DNA of 59,950 nucleotides from Thioalkalivibrio versutus (lineage in GTDB: Bacteria; Pseudomonadota; Gammaproteobacteria; Ectothiorhodospirales; Ectothiorhodospiraceae). Location of the stretch: assembly GCF_001999325.1 (NCBI RefSeq), contig NZ_MVAR01000039.1, positions 1 to 59,950 on the forward strand, given 5' to 3'. Within the stretch, counting starts at the first letter, position 1; each line of letters opens with the position of its first letter. The position numbers were made by a program, and so were the translations under genes. The notes below the pieces were generated by a model that had not been told where the DNA came from, did not search any database, and saw only the letters and a list, made by a program, of their open reading frames with translations. Below, in pieces: positions 36,584 to 41,566 of this stretch.

Positions 36584-37594
36584 TCAGAGCGTCAGCGGCT
36601 CCATCAGGTAGCACAGGCAGTCCTGGGCGATCACGCGGGTGTCCAGCGTGAGCATGGACGGCATCGCCTGGCGCTTCAGGCGGATCTCCTGACCGGCCCG
36701 CTCCAGATATTCCCCGGTCACCTCCGAACCGTCCTCGGCGATCGCGATCAGCGGGTCCTGGGCGTCCGCGTGCACATTCACCAGGCGCGAGCCGGCGGGA
36801 AGTAGCTGGAAATTCAGGCCGTCCAGGTCGGGTTCCAGGCGGACGTCGTGCTGCGCGTCCAGTCCGACCTGTAGTCCGGGGCGCACCCGTACCTGGGCCA
36901 CGGTGTGGAAGATCTCGATGGCGCCCGTCCGCGGCGGCTCCTGGGCGAAGTGGTCCAGGTGCAGCACTGCATCGATCATCTCGCGCGCGTGGTCCACGCC
37001 GGCCGCGTCCTCGGGGTGGCCGCATTCCACGGTCACGGCCGGTGCGATACGCGCCAGTGCCATGGAGGCGACCCCGCGCGGCCGGGTGAAGTAGACCACC
37101 GTGCGTCCGAACAGCGCGGCCAGATTGAGGAACGGCGCCTCCAGACGGTTGATGCAGGCGTAATGGGGATTGCGCCCGGTGTTGTTGTGCAGGTCGATTG
37201 CGGCGAACAGGCCGCGTCCTTCCAGGCGCCGGCAGAGTTCGGCGAAGACGTCGGCCTCGCGCGAGCCGCCCTGCTCGGTCCCCGGCCAGATGCGGTTGAA
37301 GTCCGGCTGGTCGTCCAGGTGGCGCTGGTTGAGCGCTGCGGCCTGCGGGTTGCCCACGACCAGGGTCAGCGCGCGCGGCAGCGGGCGTCCGGTGTAGTGG
37401 CGCAGGAGTTGCTGCACCGCGTGCAGGCCCACCGGCTCGTTTCCGTGCAGCAGAAGGACCACGGCCACCGCAGGCTCGCGCTGGCCTTCCAGGTGGATTA
37501 GCGCCGGCCCGGGCACGCACTGGTGCAGGGTGGCGGGCGTGGCCTCGAGGAAGCCGTCGGGTAGTTCGAAGTATTCGTTGATCGAAAGAGTCAC
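36584..37594 (-). CDS. Succinylglutamate desuccinylase/aspartoacylase-family protein (M14-like)
   Basis: A zinc carboxypeptidase-fold deacylase of 336 residues. Metal ligands are seen in LLLHGNEPVG (His, Glu) and AIDLHNNTGRN (His), with the catalytic Glu candidate in VTVECGHPED. I chose a GTG start at 37594, which follows a GAGGA site by 5 bases; a TTG at 37606 overlapping the previous stop is the alternative. It is coupled to a GCS2-type ligase, which hints that it removes an acyl or amino acid group from a related amide. Astin operon genes are absent, so arginine succinyltransferase catabolism is not supported. Confidence 0.72.
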   Translation of the reverse strand: MTLSINEYFELPDGFLEATPATLHQCVPGPALIHLEGQREPAVAVVLLLHGNEPVGLHAVQQLLRHYTGRPLPRALTLVVGNPQAAALNQRHLDDQPDFNRIWPGTEQGGSREADVFAELCRRLEGRGLFAAIDLHNNTGRNPHYACINRLEAPFLNLAALFGRTVVYFTRPRGVASMALARIAPAVTVECGHPEDAAGVDHAREMIDAVLHLDHFAQEPPRTGAIEIFHTVAQVRVRPGLQVGLDAQHDVRLEPDLDGLNFQLLPAGSRLVNVHADAQDPLIAIAEDGSEVTGEYLERAGQEIRLKRQAMPSMLTLDTRVIAQDCLCYLMEPLTL

Positions 37595-37602
37595 GGGTTT
37601 CC

Positions 37603-39042
37603 TCAAAGTCCCCAGGTGTGAACCGGCGCGCCGGTGTTCTGCCAGCCGCGGTAGGCGTGGACCAGGCCCGGCCAGTCGCGGCCGTGGCGCGCGACCCAGT
37701 CGCGTTGCCAGTGCGTGCCGGTCTGGCGGCTGGCGACGCGCGCGGCGATGATGCCAAGCAGGTTGTCGCGTTCGCTGCGGTCGATGCCCAGGCGCTCCAG
37801 ACCCTCGGCCGCCCGGGGGAGCAGCTCCCGCGTGATCAGGCGTGGCGCCGGGACGGGGTCGCGATGGCCCCAGCGCAGGCGAGCATCCAGCCCGTAGCGG
37901 GCGGCATTGTAGAAGTTGTCGCGGGCCTCGGAAAACGGGGTCTCCAGCGTTCCGTTGGGCGATTCGGCCACCAGGTACTCGATCAGGCCCAGGGCGAAGG
38001 CGGTGTTGGCCAGCATGTCGATCAGCGACGGGCCGGCCGGCAGGCAGCGAAACTCCAGGCGTAGACTGCGTCGGCCATCCGCGTCGCAGCCCACGATCGG
38101 CCGGTTCCAGCGCCAGATGGTGCCGTTGTGGAAGGCGAGATGGGCCAGTTGATCGGCCGGCTCGTCGAGGGCCACTGGCAACAGCACCGGAAAGTGCTCG
38201 AGGTTCTCGGTGAACAACTCGCCGATGGATGCGTGCAGATAGCCGGTACCGAAGGTCACGCGGCGGATCGGGCCACGCGCCGAGTTGGCGAACCCGCCGA
38301 CCTCCACCGATTGCTCGAACAACGGGATGCGGCTCTCGGCCCAGAGGTCGTGGCCGAAGATGTAGGGCGTATTGCCGGCGGCGGCCAGCACCGGTGCCGC
38401 GGCGACCAGAGAGGCGTTGTAGGCGCGGTGGGCGACCTCGGGGCGGGTCTCGATATGCACCTGGAAGGAGGTCGCCGCGGCCTCCAGCATCACGTCCGCA
38501 TGGCGGTGCTGCAGGTGCTCGTGACCGACGATGTCCACCTGCAGCGGGCGCTGGGCGCGTTGTTCCAGGATCGCGCTGTTCAGGGCCCGGTAGCGGGCCT
38601 GCTGCGACATGTGGTGGATCCCGAGGTCGTCCGGTTCCAGGGTGGGCAGGCTGCCGGCCATCAGCAGTTCCGCGCCGGCGTGGCGGGCCGCCCGGCGCGC
38701 CCGGCGCAGGGTCTCGTTCAACTCGTCGAGGATGGCGCTGAAGCAGCCGGGACCGGCGCGGAAGACGCCGCTGTTCAGTTCGATATTGAACTGCGCCAGT
38801 TCCAGGGTGGCCAGCGGGCTGTCCATCGCGGCGAGGAAGGCGTCATTGACCGGTAGCGGTCGCCCCTGGGTGTCGCACAGCCAGGCTTCGATCTCGAAGC
38901 CCAGCCGCGGGGGTGGGGCGGGGTCCTCGGGCGGTTGCGTGCGCAGCCAGTTCAGCAGCTGGGCGGTCTCGTCCGCGAGGGCCTGGTGGAAGCGGTCAAA
39001 GTCTGCCGCGCCGAAGTGCTCCTCGCGGATCTCGCGGCCCAA
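37603..39042 (-). CDS. GCS2-family carboxylate-amine ligase (glutamate-cysteine ligase-like)
   Basis: A 479-residue ATP-dependent ligase of the glutamine-synthetase-like GCS2 group. Conserved parts are LGFEIEAWLCD, FNIELNSGVFRAG, HHMSQQARYRALN, DIVGHEHLQHRHADVML, and LEFRCLPAGPSLIDM. The TTG start at 39042 is supported by GAGGA 7 bases upstream and by MGREI, a typical family N-terminus. The substrate amine is unknown; gamma-glutamylcysteine is possible. It lies between a helical hypothetical gene and the aspartoacylase-like gene, all on the minus strand and probably one operon. Confidence 0.75.
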   Translation of the reverse strand: MGREIREEHFGAADFDRFHQALADETAQLLNWLRTQPPEDPAPPPRLGFEIEAWLCDTQGRPLPVNDAFLAAMDSPLATLELAQFNIELNSGVFRAGPGCFSAILDELNETLRRARRAARHAGAELLMAGSLPTLEPDDLGIHHMSQQARYRALNSAILEQRAQRPLQVDIVGHEHLQHRHADVMLEAAATSFQVHIETRPEVAHRAYNASLVAAAPVLAAAGNTPYIFGHDLWAESRIPLFEQSVEVGGFANSARGPIRRVTFGTGYLHASIGELFTENLEHFPVLLPVALDEPADQLAHLAFHNGTIWRWNRPIVGCDADGRRSLRLEFRCLPAGPSLIDMLANTAFALGLIEYLVAESPNGTLETPFSEARDNFYNAARYGLDARLRWGHRDPVPAPRLITRELLPRAAEGLERLGIDRSERDNLLGIIAARVASRQTGTHWQRDWVARHGRDWPGLVHAYRGWQNTGAPVHTWGL

Positions 39043-39045
39043 GGC

Positions 39046-39501
39046 CTAGTCCTCGTCCCGGTCGTCGTCCGGTGCGTCGTCATAGAGGCTCTCCAGAAGA
39101 TCGCCCCAGATCTGTTCGTGTTGCTCGATGAAGGTCAGCAGGCTCTTGCGGAAGGCGAGATAGTCGGCCTCGAAGGCTTCGAAGTCGGCCCCGCCATTGA
39201 GCAGCTTGGCGGCCCGGTCGGTCTGCTGCAGGCTGTCACGCAGGTTGAGGCTGGCGGCCATCGCACCCTTGACGCGTTCGCGCTCGTGCGGGATCCAGGC
39301 GCGGTCCGACAGCATGGAGCGCAGGTTCTCGCCCAGTTCCAGCAGGCGCTTGCGCAGGCGCGGGACGGCGCCGATGGTGCCGGTCTTGAGCTCGCCCCAG
39401 ACGGCATCGGTGATCAGGCGCGCCCAGTGCTCGCGCAGATCCCGCACGGTATCGGGGTCAAAGGCGAAAGCGCGCTCCAGTTGTTGCGGATCGAATGGCA
39501 T
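39046..39501 (-). CDS. Hypothetical helical protein
   Basis: A 151-residue acidic, almost fully helical protein starting MPFDPQQLERAF and ending in an Asp/Glu-rich tail (DDAPDDDRDED). It has no cysteine, signal peptide or membrane segment. It is 3 bases upstream of the GCS2 ligase start and is divergent from the ECF sigma gene. I recognise no domain. Cotranscription with the ligase suggests a shared process, but that is inference. Confidence 0.6.
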   Translation of the reverse strand: MPFDPQQLERAFAFDPDTVRDLREHWARLITDAVWGELKTGTIGAVPRLRKRLLELGENLRSMLSDRAWIPHERERVKGAMAASLNLRDSLQQTDRAAKLLNGGADFEAFEADYLAFRKSLLTFIEQHEQIWGDLLESLYDDAPDDDRDED

Positions 39502-39555
39502 TGGGTATCCTGATCGACGAAGCCCGGGATGCGCGGCGTCTGCGGTGGAGGGGCC

Positions 39556-39584
39556 GGAATAGCCCCGCGCCCCGTAGCGTCCTA
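39556..39584 (+). promoter_or_regulatory. ECF-type promoter candidate for the sigma operon
   Basis: GGAAT, 17 bases, CGTCCTA. This fits the general ECF pattern (GGAAC near -35, CGTC near -10). It lies about 55 bases before the sigma ATG, in the divergent gap, and would allow self-activation. Confidence 0.45.
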
Positions 39585-39642
39585 CAGGGTACAAGAACAA
39601 GCAAGGTCGCACGTACGGCCTGCGGATGGAGGAATCGACAAC

Positions 39643-40206
39643 ATGGCGAACTGGTTCGCGCAGCGCAGGCTGCGTCAGAAGGTGTGCGACCTGCGGCCGC
39701 AGATGTACCGCATGGCATTCGCGTGGTGTCACGATGCCGCGCTGGCGGATGACCTGGTGCAGGAGGCAATGATGAAGGCCCTGACCCGGCTGAAGTCGTT
39801 GCAGGACGAGAACGCCCTGAAGGCCTGGGTGTTCCGCATCATGACCAACTGTTACCGCGACTGGGGCCGGCGGCAGAAGGACACGGTGGATGTGGACAGC
39901 ATGGAGCTGTCCTGCGAGGACTGCCCGGAGCAACAGACCGAGCGCAATCGCATGGTCGCGGATGTCCACCGGGCGATGGCCGAACTGAGTACCGATCACC
40001 GTCAGGTGGTCGCGCTGGTGGACCTGGAGGGTTTTGCCTACTCCGAGGTCTCGGAGGTGCTGGACGTACCGATCGGCACCGTGATGAGTCGCCTGAGCCG
40101 GGCTCGGGCGCAGTTGAAGAAGGTGCTGCTGGAGCAGCAGGCCGACACGGGGACAGCGGCCGATACACCCTATCTCAAGGTAGTGAGGAATCGGCATGTC
40201 GAATGA
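39643..40206 (+). CDS. ECF-family RNA polymerase sigma factor
   Basis: A 187-residue sigma factor with only regions 2 and 4. Region 2 spans about 15-75, with YRMAFAWCHDAALADDLVQEAMMKAL and the -10 recognition helix ending VFRIMTNCYRDWGRR. Region 4 spans about 105-160, with VVALVDLEGFAYSEVSEVLDVPIGTVMSRLSRAR. The ATG follows GGATGGAGGA. The next gene overlaps it by 11 bases and encodes a membrane anti-sigma factor. Its target promoters are unknown. It sits divergently from the helical hypothetical gene. Confidence 0.93.
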   Translation: MANWFAQRRLRQKVCDLRPQMYRMAFAWCHDAALADDLVQEAMMKALTRLKSLQDENALKAWVFRIMTNCYRDWGRRQKDTVDVDSMELSCEDCPEQQTERNRMVADVHRAMAELSTDHRQVVALVDLEGFAYSEVSEVLDVPIGTVMSRLSRARAQLKKVLLEQQADTGTAADTPYLKVVRNRHVE

Positions 40207-41023
40207 ACGACTGAGTGCAAAGAATCGACCCAGCGAGGAGATTCTCAATGCCTTCGTGGACGGCGAGTTCTCGCCGGAGGATCGTCTGTTTACGCTGAAG
40301 ACGATCGCCTCCAGTGAGCATCTGAGTCGCGAGGTCTGCGACATGCACCAGCTCAAGGAGCTGGTGAACATGGCCTACGAAGACGTCCCGGCCGGGCGCG
40401 CGGCCGGCACCACCGGTGGCCGTTGCCGGTTATCGCGCGGTGGAGGTTCGGCCTGGTTCCCGTCGGTGGCGGCCGGGGTGCTCGCGCTGGTCGTGGGTTC
40501 GCTGGGTGGATACGAGATCACTCGCGATGCCGGCTTCTTCGGGGGCGACCATGCTGCTGCGCCCGGCCAGGAGTCCGGGGCCCTGGCGCAGGTGGCTGCC
40601 AGCGATAACGCGCCCGGCGGGGCCGCGGCCCCGCAGCAGGTGTTTTCGGCTACCGAAACCGATCAGATTCTGCTGCACATTAACGAGGCGGATACCCGCG
40701 CGGTGGACGAGTTGCTGGACGACATCGAGAGCATGTATCGCGAGGCGGCCACGGTCGGGCGCGACCTGAACGTGCAGGTGGTGGTGCACAACAACGCGAT
40801 GGGCATGCTGCGAACCGACAGCGCACCCTATCCGGAACGTGTCGCGAGCATGGCGGAGGCGTACCCCACGCTGCGCTTTACCGCCTGTGCCCAGACCCTC
40901 AACCGCCTGGCGCGCGAGGAAGGCCAGAAGGTGGATATCCTGCCACAGGCTGAACTGATTGATTCCGGCGTCGCCGAGGCGGCCCGCCGTCAGGCGGAAG
41001 GCTGGATCTACATCAAGGTCTGA
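40196..41023 (+). CDS. Membrane anti-sigma factor fused to a DsrE-like domain
   Basis: A 275-residue fusion. Residues 1-65 resemble an anti-sigma N-terminal domain (ILNAFVDGEFSPEDR, then CDMHQLKELV) but lack a full HxxxCxxC zinc motif. One transmembrane helix lies at about 87-107 (FPSVAAGVLALVVGSLGG). After a low-complexity Ala/Gly linker, residues 155-275 form a DsrE/F-like domain with ILLHINEAD, QVVVHNNAMGML, Cys231 in FTACAQTLNRL and the C-terminus GWIYIKV. Topology with the N-terminus inside puts the DsrE domain in the periplasm. It probably holds the sigma factor until the DsrE domain senses a sulfur or thiol signal. Start overlaps the sigma gene by 11 bases. Confidence 0.8.
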   Translation: MSNERLSAKNRPSEEILNAFVDGEFSPEDRLFTLKTIASSEHLSREVCDMHQLKELVNMAYEDVPAGRAAGTTGGRCRLSRGGGSAWFPSVAAGVLALVVGSLGGYEITRDAGFFGGDHAAAPGQESGALAQVAASDNAPGGAAAPQQVFSATETDQILLHINEADTRAVDELLDDIESMYREAATVGRDLNVQVVVHNNAMGMLRTDSAPYPERVASMAEAYPTLRFTACAQTLNRLAREEGQKVDILPQAELIDSGVAEAARRQAEGWIYIKV

Positions 41024-41044
41024 TTCGGCACGGCCGGAGTCTCG

Positions 41045-41533
41045 ATGCAAGTCGACCCACAAGTGCTGCGCCCCGGCTGGTTCCTGGCCGGGGCGCTCTT
41101 GTTGATGCTGGCGGCAGGCGGCGCGACTGCTGTATTGATGGGCACCGTCGCCAAGGCGCCGGCGGCCGAAGAGCCGCTGCGGGTGGTCTATCACATCAAC
41201 ACCGATGACCTGGAGCTCCACCTGAACGCCCTGCGCAACCTGCAGAATCACATCGACGGTAGCCCCGATGATGTTTCGCTCAAGATCAAGGTGTTGACTC
41301 ATGGCAGCGGCATCAGTCTGCTGCAGCACGCCCGTACCGATCCGGACCTGCGCAGTACCGTGAACACCCTTAAGCTGCAGGATGTGCGCTTTTTGGTGTG
41401 TGGCAACTCGCTGGAATCGCGCGGGCTCGAACGCAGCGATCTGCATGAGGTATCGGACAGGGACGTGGTTCCCAGTGGCATCGTGGAACTGACCCGCCTG
41501 CAACGCTCCGGTTACACCTACATCAAGCCCTGA
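41045..41533 (+). CDS. Membrane-anchored or exported DsrE-family protein
   Basis: A 162-residue protein with one N-terminal hydrophobic helix (about 12-34, a signal anchor or signal peptide) and a DsrE/DUF1791-like domain. It shows VVYHINTDD, VLTHGSGISLL, Cys119 in FLVCGNSLESR and the ending GYTYIKP. The domain aligns by eye with the DsrE part of the anti-sigma gene, including the single cysteine and the C-terminal motif. It is 21 bases downstream in the same operon and ends close to the convergent murU. DsrE proteins carry sulfur on a cysteine in sulfur-oxidising bacteria; that activity is not shown here. Confidence 0.8.
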   Translation: MQVDPQVLRPGWFLAGALLLMLAAGGATAVLMGTVAKAPAAEEPLRVVYHINTDDLELHLNALRNLQNHIDGSPDDVSLKIKVLTHGSGISLLQHARTDPDLRSTVNTLKLQDVRFLVCGNSLESRGLERSDLHEVSDRDVVPSGIVELTRLQRSGYTYIKP

Positions 41534-41566
41534 CCGGAGCGGCCGCATCCCCCCTGCGTTGGGTGA

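Follow-up and report, generated by a model that had tools for sequence, protein, structure and literature searches.

The Thioalkalivibrio versutus contig NZ_MVAR01000039.1 was analysed as one stretch of 59,950 nucleotides, referred to here as the window. On its plus strand lies an operon encoding an extracytoplasmic function (ECF) sigma factor, a fusion protein that joins an anti-sigma-like N-terminus, a membrane helix and a DsrE-like domain, and a second DsrE-like protein, here called DsrE2. We describe this candidate sulfur-sensing system, its spread and its predicted target genes. The features of the locus are as follows.

39556..39584, plus strand: predicted autoregulatory promoter of the sigma operon, GGAATA-N16-CGTCCTA, a conserved pattern and the sole match in the window.
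39643..40206, plus strand: ECF sigma factor, 187 amino acids, with PF04542 and PF08281 above cut-off and a conserved start.
40196..41023, plus strand: fusion of an anti-sigma-like domain, a membrane helix and a DsrE domain, 275 amino acids.
40235..40381, plus strand: anti-sigma-like domain of the fusion, residues 14-62, with C48 (codon 40337-40339), from an AlphaFold2 model, weak fold matches and conservation.
40451..40507, plus strand: predicted single membrane helix of the fusion, residues 86-104, from hydropathy and flanking charges.
40658..41020, plus strand: predicted periplasmic DsrE-fold domain of the fusion, residues 155-275, with C231 (codon 40886-40888), from superposition on the 1l1s structure and from the match of a fusion profile to it.
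41045..41533, plus strand: DsrE2, a predicted exported or membrane-anchored DsrE protein, 162 amino acids, with C119 (codon 41399-41401), from PF02635 and the 1l1s profile match.

The product of the first gene exceeds the Pfam cut-offs of PF04542 (49.4 bits, cut-off 24) and PF08281 (53.7 bits, cut-off 25.7) and the NCBIfam cut-off of TIGR02937 (96.1 bits against 42.9), which bears out the ECF sigma gene claimed by an earlier note made from the sequence alone. It consists of regions 2 and 4 only; no region-3 family is among the Pfam matches listed, which makes it a plain ECF type. The three genes of the earlier note stand; the conserved sigma start (MANWFAQR, at 39643) lies 87 bp inside the start given there, and position 39556, where the region of the note opens, is also where the conserved promoter opens. 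The fusion starts with an ATG at 40196, inside the sigma gene, and the two genes overlap by 11 bp. Large minus-strand open reading frames across the locus (e.g. 40430-41548 and 39046-40371) were rejected as shadow frames, the conserved proteins being those of the plus strand. The nearest named relative of the fusion, at 95% identity, is from Thioalkalivibrio sp. ALMg11 (records of the own genome were possibly left out), and 26 of the 30 named loci with fusion relatives carry the label of Thioalkalivibrio, a sulfur oxidiser of haloalkaliphilic habit.

Conservation within the fusion was counted over 68 distinct proteins, 30 from the family set and 38 from beyond it. Modelled alone with AlphaFold2, the N-terminal domain folds into four helices, among them residues 14-21, 27-38 and 41-61, with a predicted local distance difference test (pLDDT) score of about 90. 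Anti-sigma structures account for nine of the 14 matches listed by Foldseek for this domain, all of them weak (E above 1), and VIA-align superposes it best on RslA (Z 6.6; root-mean-square deviation (rmsd) 2.7 over 56 aligned residues), followed by RsiW (Z 5.1) and RseA (Z 4.8). In an alignment of the window fusion with 16 relatives, an NCBIfam anti-sigma model matches weakly in 9 of the 17 proteins (best E 5e-4) and zf-HC2 weakly in 8. A profile of the anti-sigma domain alone, run against PDB sequences, retrieved no anti-sigma factor. Taken together with the gene order, the weak fold matches suggest that the N-terminal part is probably an anti-sigma domain. The zinc motif HxxxCxxC occurs in 0 of the 68 distinct fusions, which rules out a zinc-binding (ZAS) anti-sigma factor and files the protein as a non-zinc anti-sigma-like one; only one cysteine, C48, is conserved, in 65 of the 68. 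In addition, open frames of 68-163 amino acids that resemble the anti-sigma domain only, at 43-55% identity, were found in eleven genomes of the genus (L076-L078 and other short matches), two of them with an internal stop. These might be anti-sigma remnants or decoys.

Residues 86-104 form one hydrophobic stretch (hydropathy 1.73), and the corresponding value is at least 1.6 in 64 of the 68 distinct relatives. The mean net charge is +3.0 before this helix and -1.25 after it, with the positive side inward in 63 of the 68. Because of these flanking charges, computation supports a topology in which the N-terminus would be cytoplasmic and the DsrE domain periplasmic. A low-confidence linker connects the helix to the C-terminal domain.

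The window fusion itself matches no Pfam family above its cut-off, and a weak match to DUF6175 (E 0.019) was discarded as below it. A profile of 25 fusions, in turn, matches the solved DsrE-like protein MTH1491 (1l1s) with E 5e-13, and AlphaFold2 models residues 155-275 confidently (pLDDT about 91). This model fits 1l1s with Z 17.9 (109 residues at rmsd 1.4), and further ST0148 (Z 15.9), E. coli YchN (13.0) and subunits of TusBCD (12.2) and DsrEFH (2hy5_A, 12.0), which rules out a C-terminal domain outside the DsrE fold. C231 is present in 68/68 distinct fusions, as are G269 and W270. It aligns in the column of the cysteine of a TusD/DsrE protein, which stands after the third strand and which we take to be the reactive one. 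DsrE2 matches PF02635 with 48 bits (1.7e-12, cut-off 22.7) and begins with a hydrophobic stretch; a profile of 18 DsrE2 proteins matches 1l1s (E 3e-18), and C119 is invariant among these 18 aligned family proteins. Thus, the architecture put forward in the earlier note largely holds: the single membrane helix is recovered at residues 86-104, the C-terminus falls inside the DsrE/F fold, the second exported or membrane-anchored DsrE protein has both its Pfam family and its N-terminal hydrophobic stretch, and the anti-sigma-like N-terminus is likely, on fold matches that are weak and on gene order.

The module is conserved in the family and the class. Among 47 genomes of the order, 35 match the fusion. 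In a draw from the class, 78 of 369 genomes match it at 1e-10 and 63 carry it near full length (sorted by hand), and in a draw of 398 genomes from the phylum near-full-length fusions occur in 3, all of the same class. Gene order was compared in the best-scoring loci, 30 from the family and 28 belonging to further families of this class. In both sets the fusion is directly preceded by a sigma gene without exception (30/30 and 28/28), and an order kept in 58/58 loci rules out a chance pairing of the two genes. DsrE2 comes next in 24 of the 30 family loci; of the six where it does not, L022 and L038 end close to the edge of a contig, and the remaining four show no DsrE2 within 1.5 kb. In the other families, a DsrE2-type gene is found downstream in 12 of 28 loci and nearby in another orientation in 6 more (18/28 within 1.5 kb). 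The three-gene order first read from the window is thus met with in other genomes, in all 58 of these loci for sigma and fusion and in most of the family loci for DsrE2. A second, diverged fusion family (26-35% identity) was seen at L071-L075 (G042, G045, G038, G039, G043); a sigma gene of its own adjoins it at four of these five loci, and at L074, where the fusion stands at the contig edge, none was found. At L218 and L219 (G155, G271), two sigma/fusion pairs adjoin each other, and an exported DsrE gene lies under a divergent promoter copy.

Complexes of the DsrE family, such as DsrEFH, TusBCD and YchN, are oligomeric. DsrE2 or other exported DsrE proteins might therefore be the ones to carry sulfur, while the DsrE domain of the fusion merely docks them in a hetero-oligomer. 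The frequent neighbourhood of DsrE2-type genes, and the invariant cysteine that the family DsrE2 proteins share, would fit such a role. C231, however, is kept in every distinct fusion, including those from loci where no nearby DsrE2 gene was seen, and we consider mere docking quite unlikely. We favour a fusion whose own DsrE domain would accept the sulfur.

Footprinting upstream of the sigma gene gave GGAATA-N16-CGTC, common to 30/30 family loci, and the exact motif GGAATA-N15/16-CGTC is present in 24 of the 28 other-family loci. The four misses are L057, with a short upstream stretch, L059, and L058 and L060, which have CATC instead of CGTC. The spacer is 16 in 51 of the 54 motif-bearing loci; five scrambled or reversed patterns gave 0 matches in both locus sets, and spacings of 10-14 and 17-23 likewise 0. 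In the window, GGAATA-N16-CGTC is matched only at 39556-39584. The sigma operon is thus predicted to be autoregulated from a promoter with a GGAA-type -35 and a CGTC-type -10 element.

Within the genus, the pattern GGAATA-N15-17-CGTCNWA has 85 matches in 30 genomes (29 of the 30 with a match) against 6 for the reversed pattern, counts that were summed by hand. The window's genome has five matches (control 0), placed as follows.

Before the sigma operon, one match.
Before two tandem exported DsrE genes on contig 37, one match each.
Before soxY-soxZ on contig 19, one match.
Before a histidine kinase gene with an NtrC-type response regulator on contig 29, one match.

A looser pattern, GGAATAN{15,17}CGTC, has 11 matches in this genome against 1 for the control. 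The SoxY and SoxZ proteins behind the motif pass the NCBIfam equivalog cut-offs, and the four target classes were found again in the relatives examined (50 loci). Some matches in relatives, L112, L133, L134 and L170 among them, are followed by no gene or by an unrelated one and are probably due to chance; those at L113 and L159 precede an exported protein of no assigned role. Genes for a histidine kinase and an NtrC-type response regulator are predicted targets of this promoter (L153 1919-5118, L155 1578-4823), which suggests a putative cascade from the ECF factor to a sigma-54 two-component system. No sigma promoter pattern precedes another tandem DsrE pair of the window's genome (L070 2478-3591, contig 31); the proteins of this pair are exported by the look of their N-termini and more distant in sequence.

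Beyond the family, the strict pattern GGAATAN{15,16}CGTCTWA gave 14 matches in 13 of 25 distant genomes against 6 for the reversed pattern, and in 12 of these genomes the looser GGAATAN{15,16}CGTCT gave 50 against 16 (both summed by hand), a good part of the loose matches being chance. The 20 stretches examined from these searches pointed to soxX, soxB and a TsuA-like transporter in G128, and to soxB in G355 and G171. We treated them as leads, and the test was a comparison of SoxY loci, which were not chosen by motif. These loci were hand-picked among the better-scoring SoxY matches and comprise 33 from 32 of the 55 genomes with both fusion and SoxY, and 41, one per genome, from the 135 genomes that have SoxY but no full fusion. 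The exact motif occurs 16 times in 253 kb of the fusion-bearing set (9 loci, control 0) and once in 329 kb of the fusion-less set (1 locus, control 2). Nine of the 16 matches lie before soxX, five before soxB, one before a YeeE-type gene, and one is unassigned. Counted by gene, the motif precedes 9 of 13 soxX genes in the fusion-bearing set against 1 of 17 in the fusion-less set, and 5 of 10 soxB genes (one more with a single mismatch) against 0 of 6. For the ten proteins scanned, TIGR04485/TIGR04486 confirmed the SoxX and SoxB assignments. Spacing in the fusion-bearing set peaks at 16 and 15 (12 and 4 matches), with 0 or 1 elsewhere, and is flat in the fusion-less set. The nine motif-positive loci span five families; a motif directly before soxY was seen only in the window's genus. 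In addition, SoxY is found in 55 of the 63 fusion genomes and in 135 of the 306 others, 15 of which have a partial fusion match (p 1e-10); because the genomes are related and the counts dependent, this p-value and the one for the two sets of SoxY loci (Fisher p 0.004 by locus) overstate independence.

The promoter motif, as an independent line of evidence, ties the sigma factor to soxYZ, soxX, soxB and exported DsrE genes, and the sulfur link that the earlier note had proposed for this sigma system is supported by it. We regard it as probable that the operon encodes a transmembrane switch by which sulfur controls the Sox regulon of thiosulfate oxidation: a DsrE sensor would control release of the sigma factor by its anti-sigma domain, and the sigma factor would act on GGAATA-N16-CGTC targets. 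Several results weigh against such a switch. Each of the anti-sigma fold matches is weak (Foldseek E above 1, best Z 6.6), and no Pfam or NCBIfam model matches the N-terminus of the window fusion. The exact motif is lacking before 4 of 13 soxX and 5 of 10 soxB genes of fusion genomes, and precedes 0 of the 23 genes labelled soxY in the fusion-bearing set (0 of 20 in the fusion-less set). Eight of the 63 fusion genomes have no SoxY match, at least G171 of these with soxB. The chance share of the loose matches and the relatedness of the genomes belong here as well, as does G110, which carries the motif before soxX (L297 1867-1892) and no fusion, only a weak, different anti-sigma-like protein having been found there.

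Bacteria of this kind often have several ECF factors. With G110 in mind, one could suppose that a different sigma factor reads the GGAATA-N16-CGTC promoters, and that the link to sox is not a property of the sigma/fusion system. The motif, however, is the conserved promoter of the sigma operon itself, and the sox loci sampled in genomes without the fusion hardly contain it. We judge another reader of these promoters to be very improbable.

Computation supports the domain make-up, topology, gene order, promoter and target genes of the proposed sulfur switch, and we infer sigma binding, ligand and release as follows. At rest, residues 1-62 of the fusion, its anti-sigma domain, would retain the sigma factor at the inner membrane, as architecture and gene order suggest. 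The DsrE domain in the periplasm would take sulfane sulfur onto C231, with thiosulfate, polysulfide or loaded carriers (SoxY or the co-regulated exported DsrE proteins) as proposed donors. Both the Sox cycle and the sulfur bound to SoxY reside in the periplasm, and a periplasmic DsrE sensor fits for this reason. Sulfur loading, probably aided by DsrE2, would alter the DsrE assembly so that the sigma factor is freed, either by conformational change or by proteolysis. Free sigma would then act on the GGAATA-N16-CGTC promoters of its own operon and of the exported DsrE proteins and, depending on lineage, of soxYZ, soxXYZA, soxB, a thiosulfate-type transporter and the sigma-54 two-component system. 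The same promoter is predicted to drive genes of exported DsrE partners, which likewise fits a periplasmic sensor and would close a feedback loop. In a more specific form, sulfane sulfur from the periplasmic Sox cycle would be relayed by SoxY or exported DsrE proteins onto the anti-sigma DsrE cysteine, the persulfide would free a sox-dedicated sigma factor, and this would be a main sox regulator in many gammaproteobacterial sulfur oxidisers. This version we hold only tentatively, as close to evenly balanced and leaning to the doubtful side.

Alternatively, the fusion may be a thiol-stress sensor, with oxidants, metals or arsenite as the reactants of C231; sox and dsrE genes would then be switched on for repair or detoxification and not by a sulfur substrate. 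The invariant cysteine is of a reactive type, and a glutamate-cysteine-ligase-like gene adjoins the operon. Excerpts of an arsenite study (PMC6620896) further describe soxYZXXAB as up and DsrE/F-like genes as up or down in Tv. thiocyanoxidans, for which its authors offer a general guess; the same excerpts give sox as stable or slightly down under arsenite in Tv. jannaschii. A thiol-binding trigger acting on the sigma/fusion system is therefore one possible reading of the Thioalkalivibrio transcriptome, with a second species that lacks the sox effect. The predicted regulon, however, is catabolic (SoxX, SoxB, SoxYZ), with no redox-repair gene among its labelled targets. On balance we find stress sensing unlikely, and prefer a sensor that would respond to sulfur itself.

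Class I anti-sigma factors such as RseA, ChrR, RslA and RsiW share with the fusion, as predicted for the latter, a helical N-terminus, one membrane helix and an outer domain, as well as a gene directly behind and overlapping that of the sigma factor (adjacent here in 58/58 loci). They differ from it in that the fusion lacks HxxxCxxC and has an outer domain of the DsrE/YchN fold. The sulfurtransferases DsrEFH, TusBCD and YchN are soluble cytoplasmic carriers. The fusion domain shares their fold and the position of the reactive cysteine; unlike them, it stands behind a membrane helix and is joined to an anti-sigma-like domain.

ECF control of sulfur oxidation has precedents. In Arcobacter butzleri, the ECF factor sigma-2 (AB1044/AB1045) activates sox genes, as is predicted here, but also controls nap, and its signal is given as not known in the excerpts of that report (PMC3445524), in whose text 'Dsr' does not occur. 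In Sinorhizobium meliloti, the ECF26 factors RpoE1/RpoE4 and their anti-sigma factor respond to sulfite and control sorT and their own operon, according to excerpts of PMC3511301. Like the system proposed here, this is a sigma/anti-sigma pair for sulfur-compound oxidation that also acts on its own operon; as far as these excerpts go, it differs in being alphaproteobacterial, in targeting a sulfite dehydrogenase and in having an anti-sigma factor of COG5662 type. The text of PMC3511301 has no DsrE, its sole 'dsre' match being 'DsRed' in a reference. Another sulfur-responsive control of sox, SoxR/SoxT1B of the alphaproteobacterium Hyphomicrobium denitrificans, also relies on a membrane protein that passes the signal, but works, as excerpts of PMC11582611 have it, through a cytoplasmic DNA-binding repressor and a YeeE-type transporter and not through a sigma/anti-sigma pair. 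The term 'DsrE' is not present in the main text of an anti-sigma survey (PMC7406223), and we found no description of a DsrE-domain anti-sigma sensor in the open literature searched, in agreement with the earlier note, which had called the arrangement undescribed. With ECF control of sox and ECF sulfite systems already known, what appears to be new here is the DsrE anti-sigma sensor.

How regulators of sulfur oxidisers sense external sulfur is poorly understood, as excerpts of PMC11582611 put it. The system described here, present in 63 of 369 class genomes, is a concrete candidate for such sensing, for which a specific cysteine, a specific promoter and a set of target genes can be given. It makes gammaproteobacterial sox regulation directly testable and would give the exported DsrE proteins of Thioalkalivibrio a role beside Sox. 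If true, it would represent a new kind of sensor domain in ECF signalling.

Next to the operon, a 150-amino-acid protein is encoded divergently from the sigma gene (39046-39498, minus strand; no Pfam match at 0.001). Also adjoining, at 36584-39042 on the minus strand, are an AstE/AspA-type gene and the glutamate-cysteine-ligase-like gene, which matches GCS2 with 26.4 bits (cut-off 21). In G171, a genome of a distant family, a comparable pair and a phosphotransferase (APH) gene flank the same module (L227 6570-9108), AstE being assigned there by Pfam and its partner by eye alone; for this reason the neighbourhood of the module may be old.

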